Assembly: GCA_903813345.2 (NCBI GenBank)
Contig: CAIIXF020000007.1
Coordinates: forward strand, 32,334,698-32,398,697
Length of the DNA stretch: 64,000 nucleotides
Source of the DNA: Owenia fusiformis
Lineage: Eukaryota; Annelida; Polychaeta; Sabellida; Oweniidae
Direction: 5' to 3'
Shown: piece after piece, positions 23,925-53,188 of the stretch
Position numbering within the stretch: the first letter of the stretch is position 1
How the letters are laid out: each line of letters starts with the position of its first letter
The notes under the pieces: generated by a model
What the model saw: only the letters and a program-made list of their open reading frames with translations
Databases searched by the model: none
Told to the model about the DNA's origin: nothing
Translations under genes and position numbers: made by a program

Positions 23925-24215
23925 AGCTAAAGCATGTATGGCATACATCATTTTTTCTTCAGAAAGCATTATACTGTGCATCGAAATCAAATTTGCCAGC
24001 ATAGTACTCAATAGACATGAGTAGAATGATTCCCGTTGACACCAACGTGAAATAGCATATCTCCCGTTCTAAATACGAAACTAAATCTGATCGAGTGTCT
24101 GAAGTAGACCACTTAGCGCTTGTTTTGTACGCATGCTACATACTTTACTGTTTCGATTCATTGGCTTTGAGTTCACGATTACGTTGTGAAAAATATCGCT
24201 AGCTTAAACTCTCTA
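23925..24215. repeat. Dispersed repeat, copy with an empty insertion site
   Basis: Matches 27285-27455 joined to 31519-31590: shared 'gattcccgttgacaccaacg', 'gtctgaagtaga' and 'gattacgttgtgaaaa' stretches in the same order. Here TGTTTTGTA (24121-24129) runs straight into 'cgcatgcta', whereas the other copy is interrupted after GTA by a 4,063-bp element. This copy therefore shows the pre-insertion state. Confidence 0.8.
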
Positions 24216-24639: not shown

Positions 24640-25590
24640 TCGAACGAAGTTCGGAGGGATATAGGGAACGCCTCCGTCCGTCCGTCCGGGCAATAACTCA
24701 AATACCGTTGGCCTGATTTTGTTCATATTTTGTACACATTTACCCTATGGGGGTAGAAGTTCTGCTCGAAAGCTGATTTTCAAAATGGCTGCTCATTTAA
24801 AAATGGCGGCCATTTTAGTGCCGATTTTACAGTAATTTAGGTGCAATATGTAAAACTGTAATAGCAATATGTTTTAAGTGTAAAAAATTACATAGGACAT
24901 CAATAAAGCTAGAAATGTAGATATTAATGAAGCACATGGCAGCCATCTTGAAAAATGGCGGCCTTTACTCGTTATTTTACGATTTTGCTGTAACTCAAGA
25001 AGTAGTGGAGCGATTTTGTTCATATTTGGGATGTGCATACTATAAGCATGGCTAACTGCCTAATGACGCTTTTGGTAGGAGGCGGCCATTTTGAAAAATG
25101 GCCGCCATTTTAACATATTTTATTATAACTCAAAAGTAGTGGAGCGATTTTGTTCATATTTGGTTTGTGAATACTATGAGCATGCCACACTGTCTAATGA
25201 CACTTTTGGTAGAAGGCGGCCATTTTGAAAAATGGCCGCCATTTTAACATATTTTACTATAACTCGAAAAGTAGTGGAGCGATTTTGTTCATATTTGGTA
25301 TGTGAATAATATAAGCATGGCACACTGTCTAATGACACTTTTGGTAGAAGGTGGCCATTTTGAAAAATGGCACTTTTGGTAGTAGGCGGCCATTTTAAAG
25401 TATTTTACTATAACTCGAAAAGTAGTGGAGCGATTTTGTTCATATTTGGTATGTAAATACTATAAAAAAAGCATATTACTTCTTCTGGTGACAACTTGGC
25501 TAGTGAGCAACCATTTCGAAAATGGTGGCCTTTCTTATGTGTGTTATGTTTGCTATATATTTTGTTTGTAAAAATGCCAGCCATTTCTGT
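24640..25590. repeat. Dispersed repeat with internal tandem units and YY1-like hairpins
   Basis: Begins near 'cccatcgaacgaagttcgga' with a (CCGT)n tract at about 24680 and ends near 'tcgatgggattcg' (25593). Internal units of about 135-150 bp repeat the phrase GTAGTGGAGCGATTTTGTTC near 25000, 25136, 25273 and 25424. Between them are perfect 12-bp-arm hairpins (GGCGGCCATTTT-GA-complement) at 25081-25106 and 25215-25240, with a decayed third near 25353. No ORF supported. Confidence 0.75.
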
Positions 25591-27184: not shown

Positions 27185-28096
27185 GTCATGCTATGACGGT
27201 GTGAATATGCCATTGATATTTACACAGCTGGTTTTCTATGGTACATATTTTAAACAAGCTGTTTCGTAAGATATTAGGAGCTAAACATGTATGACATATA
27301 TCATTTTCTTCAAAATTGCCTAGCATAGTATTCAACAAACATGAGTATATGATGATTCCCGTTGACACCAACGTGAAATTGCAAAACCCCCGTTCTAAAC
27401 ACAAAACTGAAGCTGATCGGGTATCTGAAGTAGACTAATTATTGCTTGTTTTGTAAGCTACGTTCACACCAATGGCGCTTTGATGGCGCTTCAAAGCGGC
27501 TTGTAAAGCGGCACCAAAGCGTAACAAAGTTTGATTAAAGCGTCGGGGTCGTAATAGGTAGTAGAACAGCTCGGAGTTAAGCGGGATATTCGGCAAGAGC
27601 ACTAAAAATGTAAACTGTTCAAGCTACGTTCGCACCAACGGCGCTTTGATGGCGCTTTAAAGCGGCTTGTAAAGCGGCACCAAAGCGTAACAAAGCTTGA
27701 TTAAAGCGTCGGGGTAGTAATAGGTCGTAGAAAAGCTCGGAGTAAAGCGGGATAGTCTGCAAGAGCGCCAAAAAATGTTAAACTGTTTAAAATTTTTGGG
27801 CGCTCTGTTACGAATTGATTGAAGCGCCGAGAGCGTATCAAAGCTTAACAAACCGTAACAAAGCTCAACAAAGCTTGACTCAAAGCGTAGGAAAGCTTAA
27901 CAGAGCTTGGTTCAAAGCGGGGACCCCAGTCTGTTCACGGTCTATTACCACTTGACACGCTTCGTTAAGATGTCTCAAGATTTGCTACGATCTGGCATGA
28001 AGATCTGACACGAGGTCAGACGCTATCATCAATATCTGACACTCTTTGTTACACTTTCATGAAGGACTCTCAAGCTTTCCAACGAATTGAGACGCT

Positions 28097-28237
28097 TTAA
28101 TCAAGGATTGAAACGCTTTGCTGTACGCTTGACAAGTTTCCACACGCTATATCACGCCGTGCGACAAACGTCATGTCTTCTTCAGATAGGTCATGCTCTG
28201 GTCCATCTGTAATTTCTGTATCTCGTTGTTCTGCCAT
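28097..28237 (-). CDS. Small ORF inside the AAAGCG element
   Basis: A 46-codon ORF starting MAEQRDTEITDGPEHDLSEE followed by DMTFVARRD. It is acidic and lacks a recognised domain. It begins a few bases from the LINE insertion point at about 28260, so any promoter it had has been separated. It could be a remnant first exon of the element's own gene, or chance. Confidence 0.2.
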   Translation of the reverse strand: MAEQRDTEITDGPEHDLSEEDMTFVARRDIACGNLSSVQQSVSILD

Positions 28238-28261
28238 CGTGTTCTCGAGTCAAAGATGCAA

Positions 28262-29610
28262 TGGTTTTATGGATCTACTGCATCTTTATATAGTTAGTTT
28301 AGTTTATATAGTTTATTATAGTGTCACAGGTTCATACATATACAATAAAATACAATACTAAAATACATTAATAAAAAAACCTCTAGCCGATGCCGGGCTA
28401 ATGAGACACTTATATTATACATAAATAGCATCAATATTACAATGTTATTGCAAACGTTCCAGATTAAATGCCCTCTTTTGAAACATTTTATATAGAGAGG
28501 AAGCAATTTTCCTTTGACTAGATTTACATGTCATTATAGAGTGGAGTGTAATATTATCAACACTAAAATTATCGAATGAATCTCTTAAATATGAAAATAG
28601 GTCATTTCTGATATCTATATAATGTGTACAGTCTAACAGAAAATGTTTTTCATCTTCTACTTGGTCACTATCACATAAAAGACATTTTCTGTTGTGTAAT
28701 GGAATGTTATTAAAGCGACCTGTCTCTATGGCTAACTTCAAAGTACCAGATCTAAATTCTGCCAGTATTTTTCTATGGTGTCTTGGCAAGTTTTCCTTTA
28801 TAAACTGTTCAGTGCAGACACCGAATTTAAATTCCCTATATGTTCTTAATTTATTTCCATTTATAAGGTTTCCCTTGTCATTCCATATGTTATTTAAGAA
28901 TGGGTCTTGACTTTGGAAGTGTAGTTGAACATTTTGGACTGTTTGTTTGATATTGATTGGTTGTTCCATTTCTAAAACATGGCCCTGGTTTGCTTTTTGA
29001 ATAATATTGAGCACTTTATTGTCCCAGCTTGATTTTCTCCTTATTGACCAGCTATGTACCTTAAAGTTAATTCTATTATGGTCTGTATTCTTTAATCTGA
29101 GGAATAGCCTAACACATTGGAGTTTTTGTTTATTTATAGGTAGCTCCCAGCCCAGGTCTCCTCGGACTGCTTCATTGTTTGTCCTTGAGCCTACTCCTAA
29201 ATAAAACTTCCCTGCTCTAGCCTGGATCTTGTTGAGACACTTATGCTCAGTAAGCCCTATGATAGATGTCCCATAGTTAATGATTGGTTGCACTAGTGTA
29301 TCATAGAGCTTATCAAAAACATCAAAGTCCATATCTCCAAAGTGTTTTGCTTTTGCTATAATAACACCCAAGGCTCTGTTTGCTGATTTTGCTATTTCTT
29401 GTGCTGTGTGTTGGGATTCTACATGTTCATTAATCCACAATCCAAGATATTTGTAAGTATTAGCATATGTAAGCTCTATGTTACCACATGTAAAATTAAA
29501 ATTACACCTAGGGGTGGATTTTGGCCTGTAGTGCACAATTTTTGATTTATCAGCATTAATTATCATTCTCCATTTCAGACACCACTGGCTAAGTACATTA
29601 AGCATATAGT
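28262..29610 (-). mobile_element. 5'-truncated non-LTR retrotransposon (LINE)
   Basis: A 386-codon ORF at 28445-29605 is open from the truncation point. Its N-terminal part is the end of a reverse transcriptase (WCLKWRMIINADKSKIVHY, then YKYLGLWINE at about 53-62), where the thumb region follows the lost catalytic core. The C-terminal part holds LAEFRSGTLKLAIETGRF and a zinc-knuckle-like CLLCDSDQVEDEKHFLLDC. This layout is typical of the CR1/L2/Jockey-like groups; the clade is not resolved. Upstream sequence switches abruptly to AAAGCG-type repeat at 29611. The ORF has no stops, so insertion is fairly young relative to the LINE scrap at 15.7 kb. Confidence 0.9.
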
Positions 29611-30029
29611 CATTGGATCAAAAGCGGCATGGAATCGGCGATCTCGACATTTTCCAATGCGTGACAGAGCTTAACAGATGCAATCGTATCAGAGCCTGAT
29701 TTAAAGCGTCATAATCGCATCAAAGCGTAATAATGCTTATCAAAGCTTATCAAAGCGTGATTTCAAGCGTAACAAAGCCTGATCAAAGCGGGATCAAAGC
29801 GTGGGGAACCTTTTTAGAGCTATGTTAAGCTTTCCTACGTTTTGGATCAAGCTTTTCTGAGCTTTGTTAAAGTGTCTCACATATTCGATCAAAATTTGCC
29901 ATGCAAACATGTTAGTCTACTTTACTGCCCCCCCTTGCTGTAACAAGGAACCCAAAACACATTAAAACGTAAACATAAACCAATTAGTCACTTCACTATG
30001 AAAGTGGGGGTGTTAGCAAATGTATATTA

Positions 30030-30458
30030 GGCCATAAGAAGTAGATTCTTTGTTTTGCGTCCTGGCAAAATCCAAATCATGCAAGGGTACAAGGAAAACA
30101 AACACAAACTCAAGAAGAAAGAAAAACTTGTTTGCTGAGAAATATATACATTTTAGGGGCATAAAAAGGATGACATCCCAATTTGCAGTGATTACAAACA
30201 CATATCTATACATTTGATACAATATATAAAAATATAGCTATTATTCAAGGGTAAAAAATAAGAAAAAACACAATGTATGTCAAATAATTATAACACTGTC
30301 AATTTTGACGCACATCAAATTATCCGCCATTTCATCTGATTCTGAAATGCGATGGTACTTTCAGACCCTTGTGATTGCTATTTGGATGTGTTTTTTCTGA
30401 TTTACTCAAAATCGTGCAAGCAAGGGGACGCAAAACAGAGGATCTACTTCTTATGGCC
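30030..30458. mobile_element. PIF/Harbinger-type MITE, 429 bp, TTA target duplication
   Basis: Inverted ends start GGCCATAAGAAGTAGATTCT and pair for about 35 bp with the right end. TTA flanks both sides (30027-30029 and 30459-30461), the TWA target and GGCC terminus expected of Harbinger-type elements. No ORF of note. It lies within the 4-kb AAAGCG element. Confidence 0.8.
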
Positions 30459-31046
30459 TTAGCAGAATACGCTGTGTGCATGGACTAACACAATATCAGT
30501 GGTCATTTACTGTGTCAACTTAGTAACCCTTGCATATCGTGCTCACTCAAGTATTGAATAATTTTTTATGATCTAAATGTTTTTGGTTTATAAAAAAAAG
30601 TGATATATTTTAGTTAGAAATACATTAATAATATATTCATTCAAACAGCACTAGAATGCGGGAAGAAAGAGCAATGGTGACAAAATGTAGACAGAATTTT
30701 CCGTAAGGGTTTCAAACATTTCTGGACACAATCATACATGTATATAGTGTACTGTTATTTTTAGTGCTGTATTTATAGATATAATTTCACGTATTAAAAT
30801 CATATTTTCCAGCAATGACTTCAAATCCGGAACCACACCCATATCACATTTTCTTCAATAACTCCAAACATGTGTAAACATTGACCATGTGCATATAAAT
30901 TCAGATTTCACGAGCTCTTTCATATTCGAGTACCTCATACACCCCTGCATGGATTTGAGTTGGATTCGCCTTTTATACGTGAGCCGACACACTCGCAAAC
31001 GCTGATTGGATAAAGATTGCGAGAATCTTTAAGCTTTGATACGCTC

Positions 31047-31234
31047 CAAGGAGGATTGGAAGCCAGGGTTCCAACTCGATATTCTTTAATCTCCACGCAT
31101 GCGTCATTTGCTATTCGTGTCTGTATAATTTGTACGACTGCATGGAGAATGACTCGATACTCTCCAACAAAGCTATCGCTAGGTGATTGTTTTGCAGAAT
31201 ATCGGTGTTGCATTCTGGGAGCCAATCCTCCTTG
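31047..31234. mobile_element. MULE-type MITE, copy 2 (188 bp), perfect 9-bp target duplication
   Basis: Ends CAAGGAGGATTGG and CCAATCCTCCTTG. The flanks GATACGCTC at 31038-31046 and 31235-31243 are identical 9-mers, the duplication length typical of Mutator-like insertions. It is inserted in the right subterminal repeat of the 4-kb element. Shorter than copies 1 and 3, with a different middle. Confidence 0.9.
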
Positions 31235-31518
31235 GATACGCTCTCGGCGCTTAATCGATTCGTAACAGAGCGCCCAAAATTTTTAAAAAGTTAAAAAATT
31301 TTTGGCGCTCTTGCCGAATATCCCGCTTTACTCTGAGCTTTTCTACGACCTATTACGACCCCGACGCTTTAATCAAGCTTTGTTACGCTTTGGTGCCGCT
31401 TTACAAGCCGCTTTAAAGCGCCATCAAAGCGCCGTTGGTATGAAGAAAAATGACAAAAATGACGGCGCTTTGATCGCCGATTTAAAGCGTGGCATTCGCC
31501 GTTGGTGTGAACGTAGCT

Positions 31519-32230
31519 GTATGCGCGCTATACAGTATACACTGTATTGATTCATGGACTTTGCGTTCACGGTTACGTTGTGAAAAACAATGGAGAGGTT
31601 AAGCTTTGCATATATAATCGAAACTGAACCTGTACGTATCACTCGACCATATACAAATTCATGTAGCCTACTCATATAAATAGCCGTTCAAATCCAGTGT
31701 TTGTTTAGACACTTTGCGTTCACGGTTACGTTGTGAAAAACATCGTTAGCTTAACCTCTCCTATATCGTCCCGAAAACCGTCAATTTAAGTTTTAGACCC
31801 ACTAGCTCGCTAGATGTTTGAAGAGTCTCATAGTGAACCGTTTTTCTACAAACAAAACAAATATACCTTTCTCTCGGTATATTATTCAAAGATACAAAAT
31901 CTCTCGTTTTAGCGGCGTTGAAGTCTCCAGCTGTGAGAAAATGCTTATTTTCGGCCAGGAATTCAACGTTTAAGTCAAGTTATTTCGCCTGCAGTGTTTT
32001 CCTCGATACGGTTTCGATACGCCCCATAGTTGGCCCCCGCGTGTAAATGGTCGGGACAGAATTCTACGAAAGTTAGGGAAAAAACTAAATGAAAACAACT
32101 AAAATCATATGAACGTTTGGCGTTTGTAATTCAGTTGCCTCATTTTTTATTATTATTTGTCAAAAACAAGTGTTTTTTTTCATTTGTAACATGAAGCGGA
32201 TTCCATTTTGCCTATAATGGTATAATGACT
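31519..32230. other. Right flank of the AAAGCG element, then intergenic
   Basis: 31519-31590 continues the dispersed repeat seen intact at 24.1 kb. The phrase 'actttgcgttcacggttacgttgtgaaaaac' occurs at about 31558 and again at about 31711, a local duplication. Nothing coding. Confidence 0.5.
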
Positions 32231-32814: not shown

Positions 32815-35800
32815 TTAAGGTGCAGGTCGTTTAGCATTGTCACTTGTGCTATACCAGTATTCAGCTCCTCTCCTGAAAAACATTTAAAGACATGCCAGTT
32901 GCAAATACTGAAGATATGTCTCTATGCAAAGGAAGATAACAGATAGAAATATCAGAGAATCAACAAAATAGAGAATATTGGGATCATAATTTCACATTTC
33001 TCATAAAATGTATTTATTAGATACTAAATAATTAATTAGAGGGAAGAGAATATGGTATTGAACAAAGATTATGATAAACACAATATAATTGAATACAAAT
33101 AATACAATGTTCAATTCGCTTAAATAAAGATGGTATCTATACCCCGCCTTTAAAGGCGGAACATAAGATACACGTATTCAAATTTAAGAGAACCTGTACT
33201 TGAGCGTGTAAAAAGTCGACACGGGTTTACTGTCCCGCTCTCAATTCACTTTCCCAGGGACCTAATTACAATTATTTTCAGTATACCTTCATACTTAATC
33301 GGCCAAGTAAACACTACAAATGGTGGAACTAATCCACAGAGGACCATAATACTACACGTTCACGTGCAAGTTTTTAAAAAACGTGTATCTTTAACCTCCC
33401 TCCCTCGATTGGCGCTTCATAAAATACTACATAGGCGTTACCAGAAATGAGGCAAGTAGCCTCACATGTGTCCAAAATTTTATTATTGCATAAAAAAAGT
33501 TGTATCTGTAATTAGTTCTCTATAATAATTTTTTATAACATTGTTGTGTGTATAGTTTGAATTGTAGAGGTTTACCTGTGGTTCATCTCAGCCAACATAG
33601 TACTGTTTATGCCCGCACCAAATTGTTCATTTTTATCTGCACCTGGGGGTCGATACCCTTTTTCTGGAGCAAGCTGCAATGCAAATGAGAATCCTTCAAC
33701 TCCACCCAGTAAAGCCGGAAGTGTGTTTTCCTATGTACAGGGTGACACAAAAAATGACACCCATCTTACATTGCATTACTTGTTTGTCTATTAAGATATA
33801 GACTTTTCCTTTGGCACATTTTAAGAAGACACAATGCGAATTTATGAGCGTTACAATATATGCTCCATATGACGTCTGCTCCTTTGCAGGCAAACTTGAA
33901 TTCTACGGACAAAGTTGTTGATTACCCTTACACATTGAGATATGGCCTTGATTTTCCTTGACATTTCTCTCTTTAAGTCAGCTATGGTTTGGGGATTTTT
34001 GTCTCATTCACATGGTCCTTTAAGTAACCCCAGATGTAAAAATCTGAGCTAGATATCTGATATTGCTCGAGGTGCTCTCGCATTATGTTTACTTTAAATG
34101 AGCCTAAGGACAAGTCTATATACAAGGGTCGTTCGAAAAGTCTTGCACGACAGCATCTCAAGAGAAGAGATTTCATCATTTTTATGTGAAATTTCATACA
34201 GATATAGTACTAGTATTGCCCTTAGCTTCTTACAAGCTTATATGAAATTTCAGGACCATAAGCAATATACTTCCTGAGATACATTGACTTAAAAAATTTG
34301 AACCAATGGCCCCATGGTACATATGACGTCATTAGATTGAATTTCTCTGATTTTGTGAATGCCTTTATAGACTGAAATGATTCCGTCAATCTTTGTTCTT
34401 TCAGCTGTTAATCAGGTTATATTATAACTAAATATTTAATCTAAATATACAGTACTTAACATATAGGCTTCCTTTCAGTAATGCATTATACTTGTAGCAT
34501 TACGTCCAGTCCATAAGCAAATGTCTGAACCATCCTACCTATAGGATATCAAGCCCTCTCATAAGTACAGCTACCCTCAATACATTTCCCTTCTCTTATT
34601 CCATCTTGGAATACTTAGCAGACCCTATTGGAGTCATTATATGCAATATGTCTTAATCATGAATGAGTATAACTTGTGTAATACTATTTCCCCATTCTTT
34701 ATTATGTATTCTATCAATGTTTTCTGCTCCAGCTTTATTATTCAAAGTCATATTCTCCAATATTTCCTGAATTCATGAGAACTTTGATAACGTCACAAAA
34801 TCAGGTGATTTGTTCAGATGTTTGAAGAGTATGTTTACGGTCATTCTTTCACATAACCAAAGAAAACAAGCTGGGAAATATTGAGATAAGATTCACATTT
34901 TCCATTGAGAACAATACCAGAAATTGTTTACATTTAAATTGACAGTTTATGAAAGTTAATTTAGCGTGCTTAGTAACATTGATCTTTATGTGTTACTAGT
35001 TATCTTTTACAAAATGATATGTACCAAAGCGTCATCACCGTGGTTACTATAGCAACCGTAAAATGTTAAGTAGTAGGCGTATATACACGTACATACTAAC
35101 TATGAACAAGATTGGTCCATTATTCTCACAATTAGACATATTTGTGCAAAACTTTTTTGAACAACCCTTGTAGTTTTGGACAAACAAGTAATGCAACGTA
35201 AGGTGGGTTTCATTTTTTGTGTCACCCTGTATTAAGGGAAATGGACATTATTACTAATTAAGAATACAAAGGGTTGAATGTTCGGAGACATCCCGATTGA
35301 AGCCAAATCTGCAAGCATCGAAAGTAACTTGGATTACGATACACAAAGAACGCCATACCTCCTCTGCCATCTCTCTTATATGATGAGGTTCAAAGCCACA
35401 ACATCCTCCCATGTATCGTACTCCGAGATTATACGCTTCTCTTGCATATCTCCTAGCATCCCACCTCGTCATCATTCTGGCCTCTAAAGCTGTAAAATAA
35501 AAGAAACGTCTTGCATAATGTATTGCATTGCATTGTATTGTATTGTATCGCGTTGCGTTGTATTGTATTGTATTGTATTGCATTGCATTGTATTGTATTG
35601 TATTGTATCGTATTGTATTATATTATATTATATTGCATTGTATTGCTTTGTATTGTATTGAATTGTATTGCATTGCATTGTATTGCATTATATTGTATTG
35701 CATTGTATTGTATTGTATTACATTGTATTGTATTGCTTTGTATTGTATTGTATTGAATTGTATTGCATTGTATTGCATTGTATTGTATTATATTATATTG

Positions 35801-38499
35801 TATTGCTTTGTATTGTATTGTATTGAATTGCATTGTATTGTATTGTATTGTATTTTCTGGACCGCCATTTTATCAGTCGAGCTCAACAAGCAAAATAGTC
35901 TAGGCTGAAACGGGGATCAAACCAGTAGTATCTAATACTGCAGAATGAGGTATCAATATAATGCTGGAAATATAGCAAATATTAAAACGTATGATTCTCG
36001 GTAGATGGTCTCTTCATACTTTTTCGGTCAAACCTGAATTCTTTACCCGAATCATGGGCTTTCAACCCATGCCTGAATATAACGCGTATAGTCCTACACG
36101 ACATCTAAGTTGACCTCTGTGTGTACCATATCGAAAAACGGAATGATTTGAAGCCTAGAATAGATGCACATCTCATGGGGTTGTTTTGGAATGAACAAAG
36201 TACCCACCTAATGGGAAATCTGGCATATCATGATATCCATCCATCTTATCCTCACAATCACTTGTGTAGTAGGCAACTGGCTGCATGATGAGAACTGGGT
36301 TCAAGCCTGCTGCATCTAGGCTCTCTTTCATCTTCTTTACTGTCTTCAGACTGGTCACCGGACCAAATGAACAATTCACTCCAACGATATCAGCACCTGT
36401 TTTATGAAATAGGCTGTTCTATTATTCAAGAAATGTATCCACCTAATATAGGATATAGAAGGCCACTGGGAATCAACATCAAGGAAAATTCTGGATCTGA
36501 GAGTCCTGTGTTCGAAGGTTAATGACATGTTGATTATATACGTGGTAATTTTATTTACCCTGTCAAGGTCACAAAAACGGTTAGACATAAACTATCGATT
36601 ACCTGCCCTTGCCATTCTTACGGCGCATTCTCCAGAATCGACATTTGATTGGTCTGTGCTTGGTCCTATCCTCATAGTGGCGCCACATGGCTTTCCAGAA
36701 TTCTTCATCACCTCAATGGCCCACTCAGTCTCTTCTATTGTACTGAAGAACTAAAACAAATACACGTGAAGCGTGTATACGTGCCGCTACTAGATCATTG
36801 TTATTTACTCAAAATAAAACATACATTCATCATTTTGAAAGTCCAAAAAATCTAAACAATAAGGTTAAAAATGGTTGATGCATATATTCTCATACGAGTC
36901 TGGATTGAAAGCGACTTACCTTTGATAAGAGTCAGTGCCCAGTGTGTGGTTTAAGTTTAAGTTAAATAAACACATGACTCAATAAATTTGTAAACGATTC
37001 CTTGAATGATAGCCTTTGAACTCGGGCTGCTTTCCTCGTTTGAAGTATCATACAAGACATTCATGCAAGAATGGAACTTTACCTCAGCCAGCATAAAATC
37101 CACATCATTCTCTAGATATATTTCCACTTGTTTTCTAAATTCATCTTGGACAGTTTGTTTTCCCTTGCCTTCTTTGTATGTAGGTGTGGGAGAGAGTCCT
37201 CCGCATATAAGTACATCTCCCTCTGCCGCGACCTCTTTGGCAATATCACAAGCTGCTTTGTTGATTTCACTTACCTGAATATAACATGTTTAAAGCAAAA
37301 GTTGCATCTATATGAGTAAATGTACTATTTTGGTTATAGGAATATTTTGGCCAGTGATGGTATTTAAAGGCCCTATATACATGTGCGTTAAATTATTCCA
37401 GATAAAAATGTTGTTGGTACGCATATATCCTGTTAAGTAATACTTTACATCAATGCACAACATACATCCTAACCTATTTCGAGACAGAAGAACTTACAGT
37501 ATAGATTTTTCCTGTTTTGTTTGACTTGAGTCTTCCCTCAGCTGCATAGAAACTAAACGTCTGTAGCACATCTGCCCCAGCTCGCATGAACTCTCTGTGT
37601 AGTTGACGAACTATCAACAACAAATGGACAGAATATCATGAAGATGTACGTCGTTCATACCCGCTAGAGTGAGCTCTTTGCAAGCTATCATGATCAATCG
37701 AAAATGCACATTAAAAAATTTATAGATAACAATTAGAAACTTTAACACTAGCTAGATCTGCAAATTGATGAACTCAAATAAACGTAGGAACTACAGAACT
37801 ACAGAACTAAAGACTACAGAAGATCCAGATTTTTGCATGAGATTTAAGTTTTCACTTCTCACTACTGGTATCTGTTATGGTAACTAATGATGGTACATAT
37901 CATGTGACATGTGTCTCAGCTTATTCATCAATTCAAATGATTAATTGAACCTGCGTCTGGGTATTCAATCACAGCTTCGGGGGTCCAGTTCCCAGCTTTG
38001 ACGTAACCTCTCTTCTCCAAGGCTACTGTCATACCACCATCCCCAACTAATGGCCGCTCTCGCAGTATGTCCAAGACATTTCGTCCCTCAACATTCTTTC
38101 GACCTAGAATATAAGCACAGTGAACACTATCATGTGGAACACCTTTATCATGTTGAACTTCTCAGGCATTTTTGGTCATTACATGGCCTATTTGGTGCTT
38201 TAAGGCCAAATTTTCAAAAATGGGCCTGAATTTTTCAAGATTTGGGCCAAATTTTGGGATTGAAGGGCGCAAATTTTTTAACGCCCAACCGAGGAAATAT
38301 TTTAAGAATTCCAAATTTGCCCCCTTGCTAACTTCTGAATCCACATGTTTTTGATGCATGATGTACATTGATAATCATCCTCCAAAAATTCCAAACATAG
38401 ATAAATTACTTGAATGTCAGGTTCTCTTGGGAAAATATCTACACATTATTTTAGTCAAGGGGATGCGATTCAATGTAACTTACTTGATTCAGATGACAT
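32815..38499 (-). CDS. BHMT: Betaine-homocysteine S-methyltransferase, nine exons, complete
   Basis: Cytosolic zinc enzyme that moves a methyl group from betaine to homocysteine, giving methionine and dimethylglycine. Coding exons: 38484-38499, 37951-38103, 37498-37610, 37083-37274, 36603-36750, 36208-36396, 35359-35489, 33576-33673, 32815-32872. All junctions are GT-AG and phases agree; the total is 1,098 nt (365 residues). Seen: [19 protein letters not shown] near the N-terminus, [19 protein letters not shown], the zinc ligands Cys216 (GVNC) and Cys300-Cys301 (GGCCGFEP), and [10 protein letters not shown]. The first exon codes only five residues plus one base (MSSES). At 365 residues it is near BHMT2 size and lacks roughly 40 C-terminal residues of human BHMT, ending [14 protein letters not shown]. 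Introns carry nested mariner remnants and a (TATTG)n tract. Identity is firm; BHMT against BHMT2 orthology is not separable. Confidence 0.95.
33144..33159. repeat. Perfect 16-bp GC-edged palindrome
   Basis: CCGCCTTTAAAGGCGG in BHMT intron 8, next to the dispersed repeat at about 33165-33420. Confidence 0.6.
33165..33420. repeat. Dispersed repeat, copy A
   Basis: Shares ordered blocks with 46119-46280: 'agagaacctgt', 'ataccttcatactyaatcgg', 'gaactaatccacagag' and 'acgtgtatct'. It lies in BHMT intron 8. Confidence 0.65.
33738..35229. mobile_element. mariner-like remnant split by a second TA-flanked element
   Basis: Outer ends CAGGGTGACACAAAAAATGA and its inverted copy pair for about 50 bp, with TA flanks at 33736-33737 and 35230-35231. 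The minus strand at about 33982-34075 encodes [16 protein letters not shown], resembling the mariner transposase C-terminal block (DFFLWGYLK-type). Most of the transposase is missing. It occupies BHMT intron 7 and is interrupted at 34123-35170. Confidence 0.8.
34123..35170. mobile_element. Inner TA-flanked element of ~1,048 bp nested in the mariner remnant
   Basis: Ends CAAGGGTCGTTCGAAAAGTC and an inverted, slightly diverged copy (GACTTTTC... against 'aaaacttttttgaacaacccttg'), with TA on both sides. No transposase ORF found. It is nested in the outer element's right part, so it inserted later. Confidence 0.75.
35515..35860. repeat. (TATTG)n pentanucleotide microsatellite, ~345 bp
   Basis: Nearly uninterrupted TATTG units with CATTG, GATTG-like and TATTA variants. 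It lies in BHMT intron 6 and ends about 25 bp upstream of the exon 7 acceptor (exon starts at 35489) as read on the minus strand. Long ORFs across it on both strands are artefacts of the 5-bp period. Confidence 0.95.
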
Positions 38500-50327: not shown

Positions 50328-53188
50328 GATGCATATCCAGACTACAATCCAAGGGAAGAAGAAGAATGTGATGATAGCATGTAGAAGGTGGTTGGTGCCG
50401 CTTTTGCTATAAGGAATTAAAGATGGGTTTAGCAATCAAAGGACCACAATATCATATAACATGCACTAAACAGCATATGGCTTGTTATAATTTATGAAAT
50501 TGTGGAGGCTTATCGCTGCTAAAATCAAACAGTCAAGATACAGAATAGAAAATGGAGTTGCATGGAGAAATTATTGTATTTTTAATCTATATAGTACTTT
50601 ATAAATGTTTGAATAAATTTTTAAAATACTTTTCATTCAACCTTTAACCCCTATCACACCAAACTAGTTCTCAACCGTTCTCTAACGTCCATGAAATTTG
50701 TAAATAGACCGTAGAAAGTTGCAGCTACGTCCGTTCCGTTTGCACACAGTTTAAAACCAGTTCGGACACGTTTTGAAGAACGCAGTGGCAACTAGTTTGG
50801 TGTGATAGCAATATTTTTGCCAACACGTGCATAAGTCTTTAATACGTCCTTAATCAGTTTAAACACGTTCGGAATTACTTCCATGGACGTGCTCGGACGG
50901 GAAAACATTTAGAATTTTGAATCACTTTCCCGAAATTCGATGCCGACCATACCGTTCTGGGATTAGATCGCGTGACAACGTACTTCAAACGAGATGACCT
51001 ACTAGACTAGGAACGTAGTTCACCGTTCCACAACTACTTACTTTGACGGAACCTCAATGTAACAAAATGGATGAACTTCCTGGTTACGAGTTTTTTGTTT
51101 TCTCAATTTAAACCTACTTATAAGTCAAGTTGCAGATTATGATTTAGCACAAAGCTAGAAAATATACTCTAGTTTTATTAAGTTTCTTCGAGTTGGAATT
51201 TGTTTTGAAAATGAAGTTGCGATTCATATATTGAGCCCTTCACTTTTGTTACATTGACGAAAGTCCGTTATATTACCAATGTATGTTACTTTGATGACGT
51301 ACGTCAATGTAACAAAAGCGTTGGTCTAAAAACATGAATAACAGCTTTATTTAAAAATCAAATTCCAAACCGAGAGCATTTCTAAAAGATAGGCTATATT
51401 GTCTAACTTTGTGGAAATGCTTGCCAAAAAAACGAAATGATAGTCGTCATAAATTAGGTGTCATCATAAAGTAAAGTCAAAATTGTTCCTAACAACATGC
51501 TCTATCATATTTTCAAATTTTTGGTTTTATAAATTATCATTTTTTTCAAGATGTGCACTGACTTTATCTTAAGAAGGTCACAATAACGTAAATAACACTG
51601 AGGATATGTTGCATTCAACCATGACACGCTCTTCACCAGACACTGCAAAACAAACAATCTCCTCTTTGTGATGACAAGACTAAGAGGAAATACGTTTAAA
51701 ATATGTCTTATCAAATATACTAAAAGAAGACAATGAAATGATACTTTCCTGAAAAAAGTAAGGAAATTAACACATGCCTTCATACTTTATAGTGTACCAG
51801 AAAATAACATGTGCACGTATAGCAATTTTTTTATAAAGTATGAAGGCATGTGTTAATTTCCTTGCTTTTTTCAGGAAAGTATCATTACATTGTCTTTTTT
51901 TAGAATATCTGGTACAGTAAAATTTTAAATGTTTGTGAGTACTTTGAATTTAAAAAATAAGCAATCGAATGACCAAATTGAAACAGTTTATGTAAAAATA
52001 TATATATACTTTTGTATATTTTAGTTTGTTTTGTAGTTTAGCTATCATATCTGTGTCCTCTTATACGAATTTTGATACTTCTCTGCCATGTTATTTTCGG
52101 AAAAATTAACATGGGTGAAACTCCCTAAATTACAAAAGGCCACAGCTTTGCTGCACATTATACATTACTATCTGAAATATACAAAAGTTAGGATAAATAT
52201 AAATGTTTCTATTTTTACATAAACTGTTTCAATTTGGTCATTTGATTGCTTAAATTCAAAGTACTCACTAGCAAAAAATTTTACTATAAGAGTTCAATGG
52301 GAACTCAAGGAAATTCTGATATTTCACACTTTCTATTTTCCAAATTTTCTTTCAAAGTTTCCAGACAACACAGGACCTACCATTGACCTGTTTCCCGGTT
52401 TACAAAAAGTAGACAAAGTAATGATACTTTCCTGAAAAAGGCAAGGAAATACACACATGCCTTCATACTTAATTTTGTACCAGAAAATAACATGTGCAGG
52501 TACAGCAATTTTTTACCAAAATGTAACTTTCCAGCTGAACCTTAAATGATCGATTTTGACCATATCAAAACATTTCTCATGGCTATAGTTACGATATCAG
52601 GTGAGCAATGATTTCGCAAGGAATCTTCCTTTAATTACGAGTTGAGACTAAACAAATCAATCATGTTGATGGTATTTACTCAAAATATAATTCCAAAAAA
52701 TGTATACAAACTTTGGTTGGTTACCCTGTACAACTACAGTGGTAGGTGCAGGTGCCGCTGCGATCATACTAGGCGCCATCACCTGGTTTACAACGTTAGT
52801 AACCTGGGGCGCCGCTGCAGGGGCTGGTGCTGGCGCTGGGGCAGGCTGAACAGGGGCGGGCTGAAAAATATTGTAAGCTGTCATAAAATCCCTGAAAAAG
52901 TAACTATTATTTTCCTTCTAGTAGTAAAAATGTAGGGATATACTATAAGCTATAAAATGGTATTTTTGTGTTATCCTAAAATTCAAAATTGATCCTCACT
53001 GCGTGATAATGGTGGTGCTGTGGCACTTGTGGCGGCGGCTGATAATGTACCGGAGGTGGCTGATGATGAACAGGGGCAGGTGGTGGGTAGTGCGAATTTG
53101 GGACCCCGTAAGGATATGGGGTCGGGTGATCGGGAGCAGTAGGATACGCAGGTGGCATCCCCTTGCTGATGTTCATGTTTGGGTCCAT
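50328..53188 (-). CDS. Small proline-rich membrane protein, partial gene model
   Basis: Three likely exons. Exon A, 53000-53188 (boundary at the gtgagg donor), starts MDPNMNISKGMPPAYPTAPD and continues rich in Pro, His, Tyr and Gln. Exon B, 52725-52860, encodes PAPVQPAPAPAPAPAAAPQV and ends TTVVVQ at a gtaacc donor (phase 1). Exon C, 50328-50406, encodes KSGTNHLLHAIITFFFFP followed by WIVVWICI, a single membrane-crossing segment. Exon C needs an incoming phase of 2, which exon B does not give, so at least one exon between them is missing; the last exon is also not found. The layout (proline-rich cytoplasmic tail, then NHxLHxxxTFFFxPWxxVW) looks like small tail-type membrane proteins, function unknown to me. 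Strong donor and acceptor sites and the clean hydrophobic exon support a real gene. Confidence 0.5.
50651..50808. mobile_element. MITE of 158 bp with ~20-bp inverted ends
   Basis: CTATCACACCAAACTAGTT at the left pairs with AACTAGTTTGGTGTGATAG at the right. The interior is rich in ACGT/CGTTC words ('cgttctctaacgtcc', 'acgtccgttccg'). Target duplication not clear. It lies in an intron of the proline-rich gene. Confidence 0.75.
51716..52530. mobile_element. Foldback cluster, family F1 copies with nested inverted pairs
   Basis: 51716-51907 is a hairpin with arms of about 70 bp (for example 'aaggaaattaacacatgcc' against 'ggcatgtgttaatttcctt'). 51915-51997 pairs with 52215-52290 ('gaccaaattgaaacagttta' and complement). 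52385-52530 repeats the left arm in direct orientation. Related to 38945-39326. It lies in an intron of the proline-rich gene. Confidence 0.75.

Follow-up and report, generated by a model that had tools for sequence, protein, structure and literature searches.

What kind of mobile element lies at positions 27456-31518 of a 64,000-nucleotide stretch of the Owenia fusiformis genome (contig CAIIXF020000007.1, positions 32,334,698 to 32,398,697; the whole stretch is referred to as the window), and what do the three bases on either side of this element and of its relatives record about the way they were inserted? A first-pass annotation had described a transposon of 4,063 bp, rich in AAAGCG, with perfect inverted ends, GTA on both sides, and a paralogous repeat at 24.1 kb reading through the junction with a single GTA. 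The inverted ends are indeed perfect over 15 bp (AGCTACGTTCACACC; Table 1), and the 24.1-kb paralog, aligned across the junction of both flanks with a single GTA between them, matches at 175 of 212 positions (83%, 207 bits), compared with 174 of 212 (196 bits) when the GTA is left out. The paralog therefore represents the empty site, and because it carries GTA this triplet was the target of the window copy. The genome search for the ends, which the annotation had proposed as a check, returned 176 + 160 = 336 exact matches to the 15-bp end in the 498-Mb genome and none to the reversed control. The AAAGCG-rich subterminal inverted repeats were confirmed as well: the window contains 48 AAAGCG sites vs 17.45 +/- 3.98 in whole-window shuffles, 32 of the 48 fall inside the element, and its inverted arms comprise stretches of 192 nt (94% complementary) and 161 nt (90%). 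That these repeats are binding sites of a transposase, as the annotation suggested, is a guess; a literature search on subterminal binding sites in Harbinger elements retrieved no paper that matched it in full.

Many insertions of the young subfamily of this AAAGCG family leave two flanking triplets that are unlike at the middle base only. The young subfamily has the ends AGGTACGTTCACACC and GGTGTGAACGTACC[A/T], and 16 of its copies showed a mean pairwise identity of 98.95%, with 3-15 substitutions to a 1,427-bp consensus (16 of the 20 fetched loci were counted, leaving out L047, which is incomplete, and L049-L051, which have other ends). Among the 100 ends listed out of 197, the flank was T-N-A in 96 and TWA in 88. 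When a plus end followed by a minus end within 1,500 bp was taken as a pair among 100 listed ends, 29 pairs were obtained, 19 with the same triplet (11 TAA/TAA, 5 TTA/TTA, and 3 TGA/TGA) and 10 with different ones (7 TAA..TTA, 2 TTA..TAA, and 1 TTA..TGA). These pairs were not conditioned on T-N-A, and the mismatches at triplet positions 1, 2, and 3 numbered 0, 10, and 0. The rule leaves out plus-minus combinations longer than 1,500 bp, e.g., C3:22398083-22400929, which is split by a nested copy and reads TTA..TAA. A longer list of the young subfamily, restricted to T-N-A flanks and sharing entries with the first list, gave 55 pairs, 40 same and 15 different (35 and 14 among 49 pairs of unlike ends, 5 and 1 among six pairs of like ends); it was made up of 59 of 84 TGG ends and the first 100 of 144 AGG ends, the 25 TGG ends beyond C9:25.3 Mb being excluded because the AGG list stops at C9:26.1 Mb.

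The same pattern was found in a second Harbinger family of this genome, where 27 pairs, drawn from the first 100 of 119 ends with T three bases out, comprised 16 same and 11 different (8 TAA..TTA, 2 TTA..TAA, and 1 TAA..TCA), every difference being at the centre base. Copies below 400 bp contributed nine same and five different pairs to this count and longer ones seven same and six different. A control element with a 7-bp duplication yielded eight pairs among 100 listed ends, five perfect at 7 bp, two at 6 bp, and one with a single mismatch, the age of the control copies not being measured. In the older subfamily, 34 hand-assembled rows contained 16 same, 8 TAA..TTA, 0 TTA..TAA, and 10 others; the argument relies on the young subfamily because the older rows include two repeats of listed elements as well as decayed flanks. 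A wider TTAA duplication underlying the TAA..TTA pairs was considered and rejected, TTAA being present on both sides in just C3:9698754 of the seven.

Which triplet was present before insertion could be read where an empty paralog exists. Joined flanks of 15 mismatched AAAGCG-family copies gave six with an empty paralog, and those of 11 second-family copies gave three (cases 1 to 9 in Table 1). The genome searches covered 11/13 and 6/12 joins and scored 40 of 3447 and 40 of 4065 candidates, and because only part of the joins and candidates was covered, a missing empty site means little. Where tens of matches were listed, 9 (C3:25097961) and 12 (C4:13580792) empty copies were read. In all nine cases the two flanks adjoin the same single triplet without a break; the insertion shows the commonest empty triplet on one side and a triplet differing from it at the centre on the other. 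If the commonest empty triplet is assumed to be the target, seven of the nine changed ends read TAA in the direction of the element and two read TTA (C2:14110772 and C3:25097961). At the C3:22398261 site the older-subfamily copies are mostly TCA, beside a 3-base difference, and at C2:14110772 one further base is changed beside the right triplet. One other second-family copy, C8:19561085 (TAA..TCA), has a sole paralog at 89%, which reads TTA.

The reading we prefer, with a probability of about two in three, is PIF/Harbinger-type cut-and-paste transposition of a non-autonomous element, Tourist-like but long and moved in trans, in which the donor triplet is sometimes sealed into the new site. A Harbinger-type transposase, not identified here, would act in trans on the AAAGCG family and would make cuts in the donor, outside the element, that are staggered by 3 nt, leaving the donor T-N-A as 5' overhangs on the excised DNA. 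At a new T-N-A site the overhang could pair into the 3-nt gap, fitting save for the middle base, and where it was ligated rather than replaced by synthesis a centre-base mismatch would remain, later to be resolved to the donor or the target base. Ligation of the overhang thus predicts differences at the centre only and at contiguous sites, as observed. In a two-parameter fit to the 76 pairs whose centres are both A or T (six with a G or C centre were left out), the donor triplet is retained at 0.34 of ends (0.22-0.46) and 0.79 of donors (0.63-0.94) have an outward A. For the daughters the fit predicts a share of 0.60 for outward A, which was observed in 51/88 and 62/91 TWA ends.

The proposed step has a counterpart in piggyBac, where DNA synthesis can be bypassed. 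The piggyBac transposase is a different one and no membership is claimed here, the triplets being T-N-A and not TTAA; piggyBac shows no such mismatch because its target is always TTAA. According to the portion of the source consulted, the excised piggyBac element acquires a four-nt TTAA overhang when its hairpins are opened, before joining at TTAA (PMC7351741). For mPing excision, the text seen of Gilbert et al. (PMC4561436) proposes that the flanking triplets are cleaved in a staggered manner that produces 5' overhangs, and from the cleavage geometry proposed there the excised mPing would keep a donor triplet on each 5' end. Excised mPing with three-nucleotide overhangs, and frequent donor TTA/TAA at Cas9-cut targets, were reported in the accessible part of a 2024 study (PMC11254759). 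No report of centre-mismatched duplications at natural insertion was found in the Harbinger/mPing literature, most subscription papers lying outside the search, and the parts consulted of PMC2872659 and PMC2836001 contain nothing on mismatched triplets.

On the other hand, several observations weigh against donor carry-over or against the Harbinger assignment beneath it. In the text consulted, 45 of 46 insertions of an mPing flanked by TCA/TCA had gone into TTA or TAA and one into TCA (PMC4561436), so that carry-over was at most an infrequent event at the ends that were sequenced in that work. For the mismatched insertions no donor copy was identified, the empty copies disagree on the triplet in four of the nine cases, and one case depends on a paralog of 84%. 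The predominance of outward A at the changed ends would also suit A-biased gap filling, and the searches described below found no transposase with the family ends. Moreover, the GTA of the window copy is itself an exception to the family target, since it is not T-N-A.

Several of these points are shared by an explanation that accepts a Harbinger-type element but derives the centre mismatches from error-prone or A-biased filling of the 3-nt gaps instead of donor bases. It would account for the excess of TAA..TTA, with outward A at both ends, over TTA..TAA (11 vs 2 in the young subfamily, binomial p 0.02; 8 vs 2 in the second family) and for the outward A at the changed end in seven of nine empty-site cases, and it agrees with the donor triplet appearing in 1/46 mPing insertions in the published data consulted (PMC4561436). 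We regard it as the main rival, though an unlikely one. Zero mismatches at positions 1 and 3 in the 29 unconditioned pairs would be odd for polymerase error, and affected insertions amounting to 27% (15/55) to 41% (11/27) would be very many for misincorporation. TTA..TAA pairs do occur (2/55 young, 2/27 second family), and an outward T is present at the changed end in two empty-site cases, C2:14110772 and C3:25097961. Both TAA-flanked donors and A-biased filling could produce the outward-A excess; donor bases are favoured, though not proven, by the existence of TTA..TAA pairs and by the confinement of the differences to the centre.

Recombination and mutation fare worse. If the mismatched copies were chimeras, made by ectopic recombination of the left and right halves of different copies, their triplets would also differ at the centre alone, because nearly all targets are T-N-A, and inverted duplications of copies do occur (L006/L007). 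All nine mismatched copies with an empty paralog, however, have flanks contiguous around one triplet (C9:19865625 on the 84% paralog), which excludes recombination for these nine, and we hold the explanation to be very improbable. Ordinary mutation after insertion could be suspected from the older copies with AGCTACG ends, whose flanks, such as AAA, ATA, and TAC, look decayed; for the young subfamily it is refuted, since 3-15 substitutions per 1,427 bp lead to an expectation of 0.59 mismatches in 55 pairs vs the 15 observed and the outer positions carry none in 29 pairs, and it can practically be dismissed. It also seemed improbable to us that the element should be placed in a different group that makes 3-bp duplications, either CACTA or NuwaII/Pangu of the PHIS superfamily. 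Subterminal repeat arrays are frequent in CACTA elements (PMC4423477, seen in part), and the target of NuwaII is given as C|TNA|G in the part read of PMC4482050. The ends here are AGCTACG/AGGTACG, not the CACT(A/G) of CACTA, and insertion is into T-N-A rather than into a variable target; unlike in NuwaII, just 35/94 ends have a C immediately outside the triplet; and the family with a DDE_Tnp_4 open reading frame (ORF) has the same target and the same centre mismatches.

The sequence evidence points to the PIF/Harbinger type, and as far as can be told without a repeat library it represents a new family within a known type. Of the external AGCTACG ends, 80/94 are flanked by TAA (55) or TTA (25); they were taken from 100 listed of 287 matching the pattern, six with the flank ACATTTTTAA being dropped as internal duplicate ends. 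The 3-bp duplication of GTA and its empty site in the window are real; the usual target of the family is TAA/TTA. A 3-bp TWA target at the family level, which is the target stated for PIF/Harbinger in the portion consulted of PMC4482050, is combined with short terminal inverted repeats. Membership rests on the target, the ends, and the shared behaviour of the second family, because no transposase with these ends was found. The target and the short terminal inverted repeats are also those of PIF/Harbinger elements and Tourist-like miniature inverted-repeat transposable elements such as rice mPing, and so are recently amplified non-autonomous copies on which a transposase would act in trans. In contrast to these, the present copies are 1.2-1.44 kb long, have long AAAGCG-rich inverted arms, keep a first-exon-like stretch, and show unlike centres of the two triplets in 15/55 young pairs. 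Two copies, C1:37294157 and C1:37340793 (L011 and L021), have the left flank AAGTGGGGGT in common, which is not T-N-A, and TTA as right flanks. Mini copies of 109 bp with the same ends were seen at C3:1327618, C3:4406348, and other places; the two named have both 10-bp flanks in common, mirrored, as if within another repeat.

The length of 4,063 bp given in the first-pass annotation did not hold as the natural size. Compared with L017 (C2:28807459-28808868, 1,410 bp; the sole copy compared), the window copy consists of three matching pieces of together ~1.41 kb; it is a 1.41-kb non-autonomous element inserted at GTA and later split by four nested insertions (Table 1). The 390-amino-acid (aa) ORF of the retrotransposon fragment matched RVT_1 weakly (17.3 bits, under the cut-off of 29.6). 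The small element at 30030-30458 is itself Harbinger-like, and ends of the CCAAGGAGGATTGG type numbered 449 + 432 in the genome, among those without G ten bases out. Eight copies of 1.2-1.44 kb align along their full length and have the AAAGCG-rich inverted arms, and in their middle lie a TATATAAA-like box, a leader, and a short frame with its start codon (MAEQQDPEIPDGPEHDLSEEDMMFVARRDIA in L018). The corresponding 31-codon stretch of the window copy, here called the MAEQ stretch, is probably the first-exon relic of a lost gene. It is too short to be classified with respect to the Myb/SANT domain that marks the second ORF of PIF/Harbinger elements.

Table 1. Positions in the window of the element and its nested features, and the empty-site cases (1 to 9) by place in the genome
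Feature	Position	Strand	Remarks
Target duplication GTA, left	27453-27455		single GTA in empty paralog
Terminal inverted repeat AGCTACGTTCACACC, left	27456-27470	+	perfect 15-bp match to right end
Element proper, piece 1	27456-28294		98.7% to L017 element
Inner second copy of end (AGCTACGTTCGCACC)	27622-27636	+	within tandem duplication 27455-27608/27621-27774
MAEQ stretch, 31 codons (MAEQRDTEITDGPEHDLSEEDMTFVARRDIA)	28145-28237	-	in other copies downstream of TATATAAA-like box
Nested non-LTR retrotransposon fragment	28295-29603	-	390-aa ORF; ATATAG both sides
Element proper, piece 2	29604-29870		90.4% to L017 element
Nested insertion, kind unidentified	29871-31028		edges approximate; gap in L017 comparison
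Small element within insertion 29871-31028	30030-30458		ends GGCCATAAGAAGTAGAT; TTA both sides
Nested small element	31046-31235		ends CCAAGGAGGATTGG; 7-bp duplication ATACGCT (31039-31045, 31236-31242)
Element proper, piece 3	31231-31518		98.3% to L017; alignment overruns few bases into preceding small element
Terminal inverted repeat AGCTACGTTCACACC, right	31504-31518	-	perfect 15-bp match to left end
Target duplication GTA, right	31519-31521		same triplet as left side
Empty paralogous site	23987-24193	+	single GTA at 24127-24129
Case 1, inside sibling copy	C3:22398261		empty 16/16 young siblings TAA; insertion TAA left, TTA right
Case 2	C2:30621773		empty 5/6 loci TTA (L003 TAA; L009 length difference); insertion TAA, TTA
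Case 3, inside second Harbinger	C2:14110772		empty 6/8 loci TTA, one TAA, one TCA; insertion TTA, TAA
Case 4	C3:23705082		empty 3/3 TAA; insertion TAA, TTA
Case 5	C3:25097961		empty 8/9 TAA, one TTA; insertion TTA, TAA
Case 6	C6:39318421		empty, one paralog, 99.5%, TAA; insertion TAA, TTA
Case 7, second-family copy inside AAAGCG element	C6:36186174		empty, ungapped uninserted copies TTA; insertion TAA, TTA
Case 8 (weakest), second family	C9:19865625		empty, window paralog 50734-50832, 84%, TAA; insertion TAA, TTA
Case 9, second family	C4:13580792		empty 8/12 TTA, three TTT, one TAA; insertion TAA, TTA

As the first-pass annotation had stated, no transposase of the element's own was seen. A DDE_Tnp_4 ORF in L003 (25.1 bits vs a cut-off of 24.8), with which a genome search gave 80 match rows, fragments included, was considered as the transposase of the AAAGCG family and rejected because it has its own ends (AG[C/G]CCCCCTCACATATG, i.e., of the form AG[C/G]CCCCC...) and is nested at different places in L003 and L030; it belongs to the second Harbinger family. 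The search of the genome with PF13359 (DDE_Tnp_4), which also gave a match in 1/14 control genomes, scored 150 of 269 candidates. That with the short frame of L018 scored 150 of 317, among which the longest open frame was 87 aa. Comparison by coordinate of 142 of the 150 scored DDE rows with 150 hits of the MAEQ relic revealed no transposase with the family ends, which, at 150 of 269 DDE and 150 of 317 relic candidates scored, does not demonstrate its absence. Two places among the 142 rows lie within 15 kb of a listed relic, both of the second Harbinger family, and none of nine fetched DDE loci has a pair of family ends, L088 having a single GTTCACACC.

The second family resembles the AAAGCG family in its T-N-A target, its centre mismatches, and its TAA excess, and differs in its own ends, in having 0-5 AAAGCG sites in each of six 6.7-kb loci, and in the DDE_Tnp_4 ORF of the L003 copy. 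Its transposase places were within 15 kb of a listed relic in 4 of the 19 compared (of the 80 rows), and L003 adds a fifth among these 19. It was seen in or near AAAGCG elements in L003, at C7:25.63 Mb (L030), C2:14.11 Mb, C2:0.147 Mb, and C6:36.19 Mb, and one possible reason for this nesting is a preference for TAAAG targets.

Some further structures were noted. In L005 (C2:33413110-33423100), two AAAGCG-family ends ~10 kb apart enclose several long ORFs, which by eye resemble parts of a Polinton/Maverick. L006 and L007 (C3:13182090-13194620) are two AAAGCG elements whose flanks mirror each other, as an inverted duplication would produce, and L007 contains a 1005-aa ORF of no recognised kind and a strongly repetitive 383-aa ORF. 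The window also holds an array of ATTGTATTGC-like short repeats at 35466-35929 and, at 25000-25402, a 134-bp unit in three tandem copies.

On balance, we lean to the view that Harbinger-type transposition seals the three-base overhang of the donor into its new location and, like piggyBac, dispenses with gap synthesis, the two triplets together recording donor and target. If this is true, cleavage of the non-transferred strand would fall outside the element and ligation would close the gap; for natural insertions, the parts of the literature consulted leave this step open. Target 'duplications' would then be partly inherited, and the record could be read wherever a genome has had a young Harbinger burst. 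With the nine empty-site cases, carry-over becomes a question that sequence alone can address in other genomes.

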